In this document: positions 8,405-22,298 of the stretch, one piece after another
Numbering within the stretch: the stretch's first letter is position 1
Layout: every line of letters begins with the position of its first letter
Assembly (NCBI GenBank): GCA_030603445.1
Contig: JAUVXU010000019.1
Span: 1 to 25,372, forward strand
Direction of reading: 5' to 3'
Length of the DNA stretch: 25,372 nt
Source of the DNA: Methanomicrobia archaeon
GTDB lineage: Archaea; Methanobacteriota_B; Thermococci; Methanofastidiosales; NM3
The notes under the pieces: generated by a model
Databases searched by the model: none
What the model was told of the DNA's origin: nothing
The model's input: the letters and a program-made list of their open reading frames with translations, nothing else
Program-made: the position numbers and the translations under genes

Positions 8405-9949
8405 TTAACAAAAAGGGACAAGTAGACCATATTCGTTGCGAATTTTTACATACTTGTTTCCTTTCTTATTCTTTTTAAGTGCAATATCCTCAATTAAGGA
8501 AAGCGACTTTTCATCTAAATCCTTTGACTGCAAGTATCCTTCCTCGATAGCCCCATCAATAATTGTTTTTCCTTGTTCTGTGCGCACAATAACAGTAGAC
8601 CATTTATCAGAAGAACCTATAGAACCTACAGAGATGTCTGCAAACTCCGATGTGAAGTCCGGGCATATCTTGCAAGATTCTTGTTCATAATTATGAACAA
8701 CCTTCAATGGAATGTGGATAACCTCGCCAGTAACAGAGTATATGTTAAAGTTTCCAACACCTATATCTACCTTGTTTACGTCCTCTGGCCTGATGCCGCC
8801 TACTTCCTCAAGCATCTTTATAAATGCATTATACCTGAAGTTTGAGGTGCAAAACAGCCCAATTCTAAGGGCTATTTTAGAAGATACGTGTCGTATTCCA
8901 AGTGGATAGTCACAAAGCTTCTTTAACGCTTCGTGTTGGCATGGCAGACCAACTACACCCAATTTGGTCAATCCATAAGAAGTTATAGCAGTTTTTAGGG
9001 GAGAAAGAATAGGGCTTACAGAATATCTTGTTCCAGCTGTTTGTAACAGGTCTTCAGAGGAAGTTATTATTATGGGTTCACCCATCCATATGTTATTCTC
9101 ACTATTTCTAGAAACTAGCACACCATCAAGCAGCTTGTTGTCAAGCCCATATGCAAAAATTGATGTAACAGCTCCCCCTGTCTGGGCAGCCTTCTTAATA
9201 GCATGATTTGTTGTTCTCATCGCATATGCTTCGATATACTCCCCTATTGCAGAGGGTTTTGTATTTTTCTTAGATGTTAGATTAATTGCTTTAACGTCGC
9301 AGAAAAAAGAGCGGGGGCACTGGAAGTAACACTCTCCACAAAGTATGCAATATTCATCGCGTATGACAGGCTTTCCTTCAACAAAAGAGATGGCGTTAGT
9401 TGGGCATGTTGCACCACAAATGCCACAAGATACACAAAGACCCATCTTCACTATATCCCTGATTTTTCCTTCGCTCTTTCCGATGATAGATTTGTATGGC
9501 GCAAGGTACCTTGTGTTTTTAGATAAGTAAGCCTCTAAAAATTTAAGTATTGCCTCAGGAGCTGGAGGGCAGCCGGGAATAGCATAATCAACTTCAATGA
9601 GGGTGTGTATTGGTAGAAACGCATCCAATTCTGGCATGGGCATCTGATTTCCTTCAGCGTAGTTTAGCACGCCTCCTGTCTCTGCACACGCGCCCATTGC
9701 AACTATGACGGACGAACGATCACGTAAGCAACGTACAAGCTGGATATGTTCATCAGTTATGGCGCAGCCTCCCTCAATTATAGTTAGGTCTATCTTCTTA
9801 GGAATTACCCTATTATCAGTTAGTAGGGTGCAATACTGTAAATCCAATTTATCTAGTATAGAAAACATATCTTTGTAATTATCCAAAAATGATATACTAC
9901 AGCCACTGCAAGCGGAAAGCTCGACCCATGCTACTACTGGTTTTTTCAT
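8405..9949 (-). CDS. fused F420-reducing [NiFe] hydrogenase subunits FrhG-FrhB
   Basis: 514 residues in one frame. Residues 1-150 are a [NiFe] hydrogenase small subunit: proximal cluster ligands C14, C17, C88 ('MGACAETGG') and C127 ('PGCPPAPEA'). Residues 165-215 hold two [4Fe-4S] ferredoxin motifs (C172/175/178/182 and C201/204/207/211). Residues about 235-514 are the FrhB/FdhB F420-binding flavoprotein, with the cluster cysteines C337 ('GLPCQHEA'), C367 ('GLFCTSN') and C426/C429 ('CKIC'). In methanogens FrhG (~270 aa) and FrhB (~280 aa) are separate; here they are fused in the order in which the genes normally lie. Electrons from H2 would pass through the three clusters to FAD and F420. It overlaps frhD by four bases (ATGA), with a GGGGGAA site 4 bases upstream of the start. 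Confidence 0.9.
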   Translation of the reverse strand: MKKPVVAWVELSACSGCSISFLDNYKDMFSILDKLDLQYCTLLTDNRVIPKKIDLTIIEGGCAITDEHIQLVRCLRDRSSVIVAMGACAETGGVLNYAEGNQMPMPELDAFLPIHTLIEVDYAIPGCPPAPEAILKFLEAYLSKNTRYLAPYKSIIGKSEGKIRDIVKMGLCVSCGICGATCPTNAISFVEGKPVIRDEYCILCGECYFQCPRSFFCDVKAINLTSKKNTKPSAIGEYIEAYAMRTTNHAIKKAAQTGGAVTSIFAYGLDNKLLDGVLVSRNSENNIWMGEPIIITSSEDLLQTAGTRYSVSPILSPLKTAITSYGLTKLGVVGLPCQHEALKKLCDYPLGIRHVSSKIALRIGLFCTSNFRYNAFIKMLEEVGGIRPEDVNKVDIGVGNFNIYSVTGEVIHIPLKVVHNYEQESCKICPDFTSEFADISVGSIGSSDKWSTVIVRTEQGKTIIDGAIEEGYLQSKDLDEKSLSLIEDIALKKNKKGNKYVKIRNEYGLLVPFC

Positions 9950-10425
9950 AAAATTCCCCCAATAATATCCAAAACCATATTACAAGCTGTAGGCACTGCC
10001 TTCTCTATCTTGGGACTAAGTCCAACGGCTAGGGAATCTGTAGATATATTTTCTGTTTGGCATATCAGCAGACTAACAGTCCCATCATAATATGCAGCCT
10101 CGTTGCACAATGAAAACGAATGTAGGCTTACTGGGTGTTCTAACGCATTGATATCTGGCATGGAAAATTTATTCACTGTTCCAATAGGACCATCAAAATC
10201 ACCAGAATCAACTATAATCAGAGAAGGAGGATGCACCTCTGCAGCCTGAAGCATGTTTAGCATGTATGCCCCTGCCGTTCCAACATCCATTGCATAGGAA
10301 CTATCTGGCAGAGCTTCTGATTCCAAAAGTGATGATGCAACAACACATCCAAAACCATCATCACCAAATAGTATGTTGCCGCAACCTAGGATTAACTCGC
10401 GTGCATTGAAGTAATCATTGATCAT
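9946..10425 (-). CDS. frhD: hydrogenase maturation endopeptidase
   Basis: 159 residues from the ATG at 10425, chosen because GGAGGT lies 8 bases upstream and the ATG overlaps the frhA stop as ATGA. The fold is that of HycI/HyaD proteases: 'GCGNILFGDDGFG' near the N-terminus with the Ni-binding Asp, 'VDSGDFDG' in the middle and 'HSFSL' with the second metal ligand region. The enzyme trims the C-terminal tail of the large subunit after nickel insertion; its substrate is the FrhA encoded directly upstream. The operon order A-D-G/B is the same as in methanogen frhADGB clusters. Confidence 0.92.
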   Translation of the reverse strand: MINDYFNARELILGCGNILFGDDGFGCVVASSLLESEALPDSSYAMDVGTAGAYMLNMLQAAEVHPPSLIIVDSGDFDGPIGTVNKFSMPDINALEHPVSLHSFSLCNEAAYYDGTVSLLICQTENISTDSLAVGLSPKIEKAVPTACNMVLDIIGGIL

Positions 10426-11878: not shown

Positions 11879-13051
11879 ATGTATGATAAAATAAAAAACT
11901 CACTTAACGATCAAACACCTCGGCAAGAAGAAGCTACGTATGGGCTTCTCTGTGACTCCTGTGACATGGGGCCATGCAAATTTAATATCTCGGACAGATC
12001 AAATAGTGTTCCCTGTGGAATCACTCCCGACGAGATGGCACTGAAAAATCTGGCCGAAAAAATCATTGAGGGATTAGGGGAATACAAATCGTCCACCCGG
12101 CACCTAACAACAACATACAGTATAAGCACACTTATAGAAAAGGCTGCAAATATTATACCGCCTTCTATTAGCTATACCTCCAAAATGGAGTCCTTGCTCT
12201 CCAAAAACAGGGAAACCAAAAAGGTGCCATTTGGACTTGGGGGGTTACGCGAAGATGCCATTAATGTGTGTGCAATTGCAACGCCACAAAGAATATATGA
12301 CCTTGTGATTGCAGCCAAAAACAGCGGGTTATGCAAGAAAGCCTTAGAAGCTGGTTCTACAGGAATAAATATAGTCTCATTAGGGTATCCTGGTGCAGAA
12401 GTCACATACCAACTTGGGGTACCATGTATTGGAAATTACCTTGTCTTGGATGATGCACTTCAAACAGGATGCATTGACAGCATTTTTTCAGGAGGAAACA
12501 CTACAGAATCAATACTAGCCGCTATAAAAAGTTTTGAAGGAAGAAAGGACAATATAGTACAACTTCCTAAAGAAACACTACACAAAACGGGTATGAACAT
12601 TGAATCTGCAGCTATAAACGAGGCATACAAAACAGGCAGTATACAAGGCGCAGTAGTCATTTTTGGTGCCTCAAGCCCGACTTGTACATGGGATATGCAG
12701 TCGATTGTTGACGACCTAACAGCCAAAGACTTCTTAGTTTTTGTCACAGGGGCGCATATGTACAAAGGAAACAAAAATATCGTCATGGATTCGTCTGTAC
12801 TGCACATTGGATTTTGTGAAGTTGGAAAGATATATAATATGGGTCTAAACTTCAAGCCAACTATCCTAGTTCCGGGGTGGAAGAATGCGAAGATACTTAC
12901 CTCAAGTCTTGCCATGGCACACGAAAACTACAGGGTCATAATGGGGCTTGATATACCTGTTACAAGAACTATCAAGAAAGAGCTTGCAAGTAATGGTTTT
13001 ATTGTAGAAAAAGATGGTGGCATGGTAATGAGGCATATCCTCAACAAATAA
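11879..13051 (+). CDS. truncated, degenerate CooS-like carbon monoxide dehydrogenase homologue
   Basis: 390 residues from the ATG at 11879, with GGTGGAT 8 bases upstream; an in-frame start at 11693 would add 62 atypical residues. The N-terminus carries C25-x2-C28-x4-C33-x12-C46 ('CDSCDMGPC'), matching the B-cluster of Ni-CO dehydrogenases. The later Rossmann-like parts also align: 'GINIVSLGYPGAEV', 'GVPCIGNYLVLDDALQTG', 'GAVVIFGASSP', 'LVFVTGA', 'LHIGFC', and a tail like 'G.d.pv....l...g..ve.d'. CooS is about 630 residues; the helical domain is much shortened here. D-cluster cysteines are absent, and of the C-cluster ligands only C313 remains: the positions of CCTG, CNNP, TGC and GHxP read YPG, SSP, TGA and IATP. 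It therefore probably cannot oxidise CO, but may carry electrons or sense a ligand. Divergent from the hydrogenase. Confidence 0.75.
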   Translation: MYDKIKNSLNDQTPRQEEATYGLLCDSCDMGPCKFNISDRSNSVPCGITPDEMALKNLAEKIIEGLGEYKSSTRHLTTTYSISTLIEKAANIIPPSISYTSKMESLLSKNRETKKVPFGLGGLREDAINVCAIATPQRIYDLVIAAKNSGLCKKALEAGSTGINIVSLGYPGAEVTYQLGVPCIGNYLVLDDALQTGCIDSIFSGGNTTESILAAIKSFEGRKDNIVQLPKETLHKTGMNIESAAINEAYKTGSIQGAVVIFGASSPTCTWDMQSIVDDLTAKDFLVFVTGAHMYKGNKNIVMDSSVLHIGFCEVGKIYNMGLNFKPTILVPGWKNAKILTSSLAMAHENYRVIMGLDIPVTRTIKKELASNGFIVEKDGGMVMRHILNK

Positions 13052-13098: not shown

Positions 13099-13362
13099 AT
13101 GATGTGTGCTGTAGAAAATGTAAATGCATTTCCCTATGAATCAATTACTATTATTATTGGGTTAAAAGTGATTCCTGGAAAGGAAAAAAACATAAGGGAA
13201 TATTCTGCACATTTCCATGAAATAACACATATTTTTAAAGCATTCGGATGTTTTGATGTAATTTTCTTCGTATCTATTGAAGAAGAAGCGTTATCTTTAT
13301 TTATAAAAAAGATAGAACAAATTGAAGGTGTCCTTGAAGTACACGTTATGAAACTCATATAA
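13099..13362 (+). CDS. stand-alone Lrp/AsnC-type RAM (effector-binding) domain protein
   Basis: 87 residues. After a short N-terminal extension, residues about 16-87 have the alpha/beta RAM pattern: a first strand 'TIIIGLKVIPGKE', a helix, then 'FGCFDVIFFVSIEEE' (the G..D motif of the ligand pocket), and 'IEQIEGVLEVHVM' as the final helix-strand. There is no DNA-binding helix-turn-helix, so it is a ligand-binding module (often amino acids) that may pair with a full Lrp protein or its own kind. It lies 47 bases after the CooS-like gene with its own TATA box. In the same frame, directly after its TAA, a second RAM domain follows. Confidence 0.75.
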   Translation: MMCAVENVNAFPYESITIIIGLKVIPGKEKNIREYSAHFHEITHIFKAFGCFDVIFFVSIEEEALSLFIKKIEQIEGVLEVHVMKLI

Positions 13363-20744: not shown

Positions 20745-22298
20745 GTGAAAGATCAAATTCTTGCCGCAATACAAAACATCCGTGCAGAGCTAAGCATCGC
20801 GCCTAGAGAGCCAAAAATAACACGAATCTTCAAGAAAGAAGAGGCACTCTATATCGAATGTGAGGATCGTGCTGACAAGAGCGTTATAATTGGGACGGGT
20901 GGTTGGGTTGTTGGAAAGCTAGCTCAGGAGTTTGACGTCAAAAACATAACAATAGAATCGCGCCTTGATAATATTAAAAACACAAGACGCCTCATCGAGT
21001 CGATGCGCAAACTATCTCATGCCGAGATAGATTATGAAACTAGATCTTTTTTATTATCCCTTATCAAAGGGCACGTGCCGACACCCATAACAGCTTTGGT
21101 GCTTGGTGAAGAGCTTCACTGGGCTTGTGGCTTTCTAGAAAGCAACGGATGTTCCCCAATACTTCTGCATTCCGGCCATGTGGATGAGCGTGTCAAAGAT
21201 GCGTATGAAAACACAACATACATCGAAACGGATGTTCCATCTACCCCTTATAATATTAGGATTATGAAAATGACGGACATTGCGATAAGAATCGCAAGAG
21301 AGCGTGCCATAAATCTCGTGTTTGGTGCATTTGAAAAATCTATGACAATACATGAAAATATAATACTTATAAATCCAGAACGATTTTTTAATATATCTGC
21401 ATGGGCACAACACACTTATGAGAGAAAAAAGTACAGGGCCAAAATCTACAATCTATCTGATGAAAATAAAATATATCTGATAAAAAAGATGCTTGAGGAT
21501 GTTTACGAGGGGCTTATTGAACCAAATGAGGCTGCAAACAACATCTATTTACATTGGCCAGAACAACATTTTGATATTGCATTTGATCCAATGATGATGG
21601 GGGCATTTGATAAGGTGTATAAAAGAAGAAACGCCCTAAAGCATGCAGCAAAAACAGCACCTGAAATACATAATGCACTATGCGCATTTGTTAACAATTC
21701 CCCCCCTAACACAAACCTAAGCGCGCTAGTCGCATGGTCGGGGGGTATAGACAGCACAGCCTGCATATTCCTTTCTAAGGAAATGGGATTTAAAACTCAT
21801 GCAGCTACTGTATGCTTAGATCATATGGGGCTTGAATCAATGGGAAAATGGTGTATGAAACATGACGTGCCCCATATCGTGCTTGAAACTCCAAAAGGTA
21901 TTGAAAGGATAATAAAAAGTGCAAAAGATGGAAAGCTGCACCCTTGCGGGCGATGCCATAAACTAATCGAAAATACAATAACAGAATATGCCAACTGCAA
22001 TGGGTATGACGTGGTAATCTTTGGAGATATGCTCTCAAGTGGCGCCCAATCCATAACAAGACAAAATGGGCTATATGTCATAAACCTCCCTGCAGCGCTT
22101 GCACTAACAAAACACGATCTTGAACTTTATGCAAAAAAGATGGCTGACGATGTATTTGGATGTTCACTCCTGGATTTGGTGTATGAAAAGAATAGGCGTT
22201 TCAGAAAAGTTTCAGTTCAAAGGGTTTTACGTGAGCTTAGGGCGCAAGTGATAGATAAGAAGTACGCATTATGTGTTATAAAAGATATAATGAAGTAA
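20745..22298 (+). CDS. KH-like domain / PP-loop ATPase, putative tRNA-modifying enzyme
   Basis: 517 residues with a GTG start (no in-frame ATG upstream; no clear ribosome site). The N-terminal part has a KH-like segment, 'SVIIGTGGWVVGKLAQEF' (46-63), with the GxxG loop seen in RNA-binding domains. A helical and alpha/beta middle (100-310) is unassigned. The C-terminal part is an N-type ATP pyrophosphatase: P-loop 'WSGGIDST' (331-338), 'C401-G-R-C404' and 'IFGDMLSSGAQ' (425-435). PP-loop enzymes with a CxxC adenylate and thiolate or ligate tRNA bases (TtcA, Ncs6/TtuA, TilS). The target is unknown. Alternatively it could act in cofactor synthesis. Confidence 0.8.
   Translation: MKDQILAAIQNIRAELSIAPREPKITRIFKKEEALYIECEDRADKSVIIGTGGWVVGKLAQEFDVKNITIESRLDNIKNTRRLIESMRKLSHAEIDYETRSFLLSLIKGHVPTPITALVLGEELHWACGFLESNGCSPILLHSGHVDERVKDAYENTTYIETDVPSTPYNIRIMKMTDIAIRIARERAINLVFGAFEKSMTIHENIILINPERFFNISAWAQHTYERKKYRAKIYNLSDENKIYLIKKMLEDVYEGLIEPNEAANNIYLHWPEQHFDIAFDPMMMGAFDKVYKRRNALKHAAKTAPEIHNALCAFVNNSPPNTNLSALVAWSGGIDSTACIFLSKEMGFKTHAATVCLDHMGLESMGKWCMKHDVPHIVLETPKGIERIIKSAKDGKLHPCGRCHKLIENTITEYANCNGYDVVIFGDMLSSGAQSITRQNGLYVINLPAALALTKHDLELYAKKMADDVFGCSLLDLVYEKNRRFRKVSVQRVLRELRAQVIDKKYALCVIKDIMK

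Follow-up and report, generated by a model that had tools for sequence, protein, structure and literature searches.

The open reading frame at positions 11879 to 13051 encodes a shortened relative of CO dehydrogenase (CODH), and the alignment, the fold comparison, and the phylogenetic tree all lend strong support to its derivation from a Ni-CODH with loss of the CO-oxidizing C-cluster. We infer that it is a CO-inactive, CODH-derived redox relay in Theionarchaea which has turned into a probable sensor in the NM3 family, a reading to which we assign a probability of roughly 0.55. The window, that is, the whole stretch of DNA analyzed, is one entire contig of 25,372 b from an uncultured archaeal genome (1.62 Mb, 96% complete). 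This genome encodes McrA, and the source organism is therefore a methanogen.

11879..13051, + strand: short CODH-like protein, 390 aa (396 aa from ATG 11861), identified by Prismane PF03063, orthologues, and CODH fold

Two other in-frame starts (ATG 11861 and TTG 11693) are available, and ATG 11879 is considered the best one because the homologues open with MYEKI or MYDRI. Prismane/CODH (PF03063, E = 1.4e-17) is the sole Pfam family matched, and the score of 64 bits against a gathering score of 27 bits places the protein in this superfamily. TIGR01702 also matches (E = 5e-20), with a score of 71 bits that lies far below the curated cut-off of 478. All sequence matches in PDB are CODHs, which bears out the CooS-like assignment made in the first-pass annotation. 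A PDB profile search with six short proteins returned CODHs at 3e-31 and hybrid cluster protein (HCP) at 0.12, by which an HCP origin is disfavored at the sequence level.

The protein is about 240 residues shorter than a CODH (396 vs 632 aa). The largest loss, 103 residues, lies between the B-cluster and the first Rossmann domain (73 vs 176 residues), with a further shortening of 52 residues between positions 295 and 446, 20 between 476 and 526, and the remainder at the ends. The helical domain had been described as about 115 residues shorter; it is indeed reduced, but by 103 residues, with deletions spread along the protein.

The metal ligands were compared by aligning the window protein and its five orthologues with the source genome's own Hcp and with 43 full-length archaeal CODHs that cover Thermococcus CooS, CODH-V-like, CdhA, and further types. 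The B-cluster, Cys333, Cys446, Cys476, and Cys526 are kept in all 43 full-length enzymes. The B-cluster and Cys526 are also present in the six short proteins, all of which have lost His261, Cys333 together with its segment, and the D-cluster cysteines, there being no cysteine at all upstream of the B-cluster; the acid-base residue His93 is replaced by Tyr in each. The four NM3-type proteins additionally lack Cys295, Cys446, and Cys476, which the two Theionarchaea proteins retain, leaving the latter with four of the six C-cluster ligands (Cys295/446/476/526). The NM3 type retains Lys563, which is replaced by Arg in Theionarchaea. The positions concerned in the window are as follows:

11951..12016, + strand: B-cluster motif, Cys25/28/33/46 counted from 11879 (Cys31/34/39/52 from 11861), invariant in 6/6 short forms
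12269..12685, + strand: new cysteines of the NM3 type, Cys137 (12269), Cys189 (12425), Cys204 (12470), and Cys275 (12683)
12386..12388, + strand: Cys295 position, Tyr in the window, Tyr or Ala in the NM3 type, Cys in Theionarchaea
12668..12670, + strand: Cys446 position, Ala in the window, Cys in Theionarchaea
12752..12754, + strand: Cys476 position, Ala in the window and followed by the conserved His299, Cys in Theionarchaea
12815..12817, + strand: Cys526 equivalent, Cys313 from 11879 (Cys319 from 11861), the sole C-cluster ligand left

At the C-site of the window protein, His261 is thus gapped, position 295 is Tyr, 333 falls in the deleted segment, and 446 and 476 are both Ala, so that Cys526 alone remains of the six-ligand set of CooS-type Ni-CODH. 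The annotation had singled out C25/C28/C33/C46 as B-cluster cysteines and C313 as the one C-cluster ligand left; the alignment recovers both and upholds the loss of the C-cluster, while adding that the D-cluster cysteines and His93 are lost too and that Lys563 is kept. The sequence comparison shows that the C-cluster ligands were lost in two steps, His261 and Cys333 in all members and Cys295/446/476 later on the NM3 branch. The new cysteines Cys137/189/204/275 are identical in 4/4 NM3-type proteins and absent from Theionarchaea, a conservation that exceeds chance mildly (P = 0.04); His299 and His315 are also conserved in the NM3 type.

Structure prediction, one of the checks proposed in the annotation, recovered the CODH fold. 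The AlphaFold model of the window protein, built from six sequences, is of low confidence (pLDDT 56), and the best matches of this low-confidence model are CODHs (Foldseek 2e-13; Z = 13.8). The model of a Theionarchaea orthologue (pLDDT 75, pTM 0.76) superimposes on Desulfovibrio vulgaris CODH over 378 of 392 residues at 3.3 Å with Z = 24.2. Comparison with class III HCP (PDB: 7e0l) gave Z = 12.6 for the window model and 22.6 for the Theionarchaea model. The predicted structures show that the CODH fold persists although the long helical part, the Cys333 segment, and the D-cluster are missing. We claim no geometry for the new cysteines, since the window model is weak.

The short family consists of six proteins of 388 to 398 aa, from four NM3-family methanogen genomes and two Theionarchaea, all of one order. 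The window protein shares 48% to 51% identity with the orthologues in G001, G002, and G004 and 30% with those of the Theionarchaea (G006 and G009); named carriers include archaeon NM3, Methanomicrobia archaeon SpSt-1146, and a Ca. Methanofastidiosia MAG. No short form was detected in the remainder of the 396 archaeal genomes searched (216 genera), and a pattern-limited single-protein scan of genome contigs also gave nothing. Bacteria were reached by such contig scans only, so that absence from them is weakly tested. Viral contigs yielded nothing with alignments of full-length CODHs or of the short proteins as query, nor did 227 genomes from the phylum of G205, in a scan run without a positive control. 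In a tree of 40 sequences, the six short forms are monophyletic (support 100/99) on a long branch whose position among CODHs the tree leaves unplaced. Values of dN/dS are 0.13 (G001/G002) and 0.07 (G006/G009), and the short proteins are under purifying selection. The architecture is no chance product, because five orthologues share the deletions and the B-cluster at dN/dS of 0.07 to 0.13; the open reading frame is a real gene and neither a pseudogene nor a one-off.

Members of family NM3 are methyl-dependent hydrogenotrophic methanogens that have lost the Wood-Ljungdahl pathway (PMC9635834). No full-length CODH above the TIGR01702 cut-off was found in G000 or G004, and full-length CODH-V-type proteins are separately present in G001, G002, and G003. 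The latter (L036 1134-3143 in G001, L037, L038) carry Glu295, a type III D-cluster, and Tyr in place of His93, and those of G001 and G002 adjoin two CooC/MinD-like ATPases with ferredoxin motifs.

The gene neighborhoods differ between the two branches. In the Theionarchaea genome G006, the short gene overlaps the gene of a 154-aa CooF-like ferredoxin by 4 bp; MNHE begins 4 nt past it and is followed by further Mrp-type subunits and then by a [NiFe] hydrogenase, in the large subunit of which both CxxC pairs are intact (RICGICS, DPCFCC). The downstream genes of G009 are the same, and its contig stops short of the ferredoxin position. The arrangement resembles published gene clusters of CODH, CooF, and energy-converting hydrogenase (ECH/Mrp), in which CooS occupies the slot held here by the short gene; the difference is that this slot is filled by a protein with an incomplete C-cluster. 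Canonical CooS is absent from the operon (L035 1657-10798 in G006, with the short gene at 9159-10337; L034 in G009).

In 4/4 NM3-type loci, the short CODH gene is followed by the genes of the Lrp/AsnC-like domain, UMP kinase, a thioredoxin-like protein, and EndA, in this order.

13099..13362, + strand: stand-alone Lrp/AsnC ligand-binding-domain-like protein, 87 aa, the next gene in 4/4 NM3-type loci

Across these loci the Lrp/AsnC-like partner measures 84 to 87 aa. It matches PF01037 at E = 0.012 to 0.1, under the Pfam cut-off, and has a weak PDB profile match (E = 8e-4) to the stand-alone AsnC effector domain 2e1a. Strong orthologues (131-149 bits) are confined to the four NM3-type genomes; the 17 remaining genomes of the order yielded none, and the next best match scores 54 bits.

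On the other side of the short gene in the window lies a divergent frhA-frhD-frhGB operon; a link with F420 hydrogenases had been hinted at in the annotation. Our survey shows this neighbor to be peculiar to the source genome: in G001 and G002, frhA and frhGB are on contigs other than that of the short gene, and the f4 genomes have frh without the short CODH. A partnership with F420 hydrogenase was accordingly rejected, while the CODH derivation and C-cluster loss put forward along with it stand on alignment, fold, and tree. Within the same operon, a single 514-aa open reading frame (8405-9949, - strand) encodes FrhG (gamma) and FrhB (beta) as one fused protein and has full-length matches in G001, G004, and the f4 genomes, suggesting an order-wide fusion.

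The ligand set and the neighborhoods together suggest how the protein may work. No Ni-Fe C-cluster could be built on it and CO and CO2 would not be interconverted; with these ligands lost and one Fe-S site kept under selection, another redox or sensing job is very probable. The short protein would then be a redox module whose B-cluster motif provides one [4Fe-4S] site. A second, ordinary Fe-S cluster could be bound in Theionarchaea by the four C-site cysteines left there, which makes a relay the simplest reading for that branch: in the CooS slot, the protein would link the CooF-like ferredoxin to the Mrp-[NiFe] hydrogenase by relaying electrons, the partners being suggested by gene order. In the NM3 family, where the protein is uncoupled from any hydrogenase operon, further cysteine loss and the constant Lrp/AsnC-like neighbor suggest a sensing or regulatory role. 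Here the B-cluster, possibly joined by a metal site that has been rebuilt, would most likely sense redox state or a small molecule jointly with the adjacent Lrp/AsnC-like domain, a pairing again suggested by gene order. The electron-transfer or sensory role proposed in the annotation fits both the CooF/Mrp-hydrogenase operon and the conserved Lrp/AsnC-like partner. Against it, loss of the D-cluster removes the usual electron exit route, and the four new cysteines, two histidines, and retained Lys563 of the NM3 type could form an active metal site and not a bare sensor.

The main rival explanation is that of an enzyme whose active site has been rebuilt around an Fe-S(-O) or different metal center, bound by the remaining or new Cys/His residues, and which acts, like CODH-V or HCP, on a small molecule other than CO (eg, hydroxylamine, NO, or sulfur species); we regard it as a serious though somewhat unlikely candidate. 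The Cys295/446/476/526 set retained in Theionarchaea, the conserved Cys137/189/204/275/319, His299, and His315 of the NM3 type, and the catalytic-module position of the Theionarchaea gene in its hydrogenase operon all speak for such an enzyme, as does CODH-V itself, which holds an Fe-S-O cluster on the CODH fold (PMC10502027). However, the His and other ligands lost here are kept by both HCP and CODH-V, and the new cysteines are conserved mildly beyond chance, as given above. Also doubtful is a new type of metalloprotein on the CODH scaffold, with a rebuilt C-site center in the NM3 family (Cys137/275/319, His299, and others) and, in Theionarchaea, a four-Cys cluster by which the protein would serve the Mrp-hydrogenase as input module for a substrate other than CO.

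A structural or regulatory scaffold, or an Fe-S/Ni carrier or chaperone, in either case not itself active in redox reactions, would agree with the loss of most catalytic residues and of some 240 amino acids, as well as with the UMP kinase and EndA genes next to the NM3 type, which are not redox-pathway genes (the thioredoxin-like neighbor is an exception). Yet all four cysteines of the B-cluster are present without exception in the six proteins and the Theionarchaea operon is a redox operon, and this explanation appears improbable to us. Continued CO oxidation through an unusual C-cluster is very improbable: the Theionarchaea operon does resemble CO-dependent hydrogenase clusters and four of six ligands remain there, but the window protein is without five of the six, has Tyr for His93, and lacks the D-cluster, and in CODH-V the loss of Cys295 alone coincides with absent CODH activity. 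A decaying pseudogene or assembly artefact, for which the greatly reduced length could be cited, is hardly credible and was rejected in view of the open frames and common architecture in six separate assemblies, the conserved neighbors, and the purifying selection on the orthologues.

Compared with known systems, CooS-type Ni-CODHs (D. vulgaris 6b6v, Thermococcus AM4 6t7j, and Carboxydothermus hydrogenoformans CODH-II 1su6) are the best sequence and structure matches, sharing the fold, the B-cluster motif, the order of conserved segments, and the Cys526 and Lys563 equivalents; the short form differs in its size, in lacking His261, Cys295/333/446/476, and the D-cluster, and in Tyr for His93. 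CODH-V (clade D) is alike in carrying an altered ligand set on the CODH fold and Tyr for His93 but is full length with Cys295 replaced by Glu, whereas the short forms have Tyr/Ala or Cys at 295 and no D-cluster cysteines. CODH-V lacks both the C-cluster and CODH activity (PMC10502027), groups A-4 and A-6 have incomplete active sites, and some clade A enzymes are also without a D-cluster (PMC6344411). Mini-CooS of clade G (Thermosinus carboxydivorans) is another shorter, divergent CooS relative, set apart by its description as having a complete metal-cluster motif (PMC8776680), which is incomplete in the short family. Class III HCP of Methanothermobacter marburgensis (7e0l) is likewise a short superfamily member missing a middle segment but retains the hybrid-cluster ligands (His, two Glu, and four Cys); in the short proteins the His is gapped or Tyr and the Cys333 equivalent is deleted.

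Altered or missing C-clusters as such are already known in CODHs, and the novelty therefore lies in the combination: in the literature compared we found no 390-aa form that lacks His261, the D-cluster, and the Cys333 segment and is retained throughout a lineage. With CODH-V, A-4, and A-6 known and this combination not found, we treat the short family as a variant of the altered CODHs. The published CODH surveys compared set aside sequences that lacked ligands or were too short (<400 or <550 aa), and forms of this kind were thereby filtered out. In this family the CODH scaffold was stripped stepwise: every member has lost the D-cluster, His261, and the Cys333 segment, one branch has lost a further three cysteines, and the B-cluster stayed under purifying selection throughout. 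The family thus offers a natural series in which to study the part that B-cluster and scaffold play when there is no C-cluster. Annotation of such proteins as CO dehydrogenase may wrongly predict CO metabolism, a risk underlined by the two of four NM3-family carriers in which no full-length CODH was detected at the TIGR01702 cut-off.

Elsewhere in the window (20745-22298, + strand), a 517-aa protein with a PP-loop-like motif (SGGIDST) and CGRCH has no Pfam match at 1e-3 and has homologues in G001 (L031 2-1630) and G004 (L033 462-2021).
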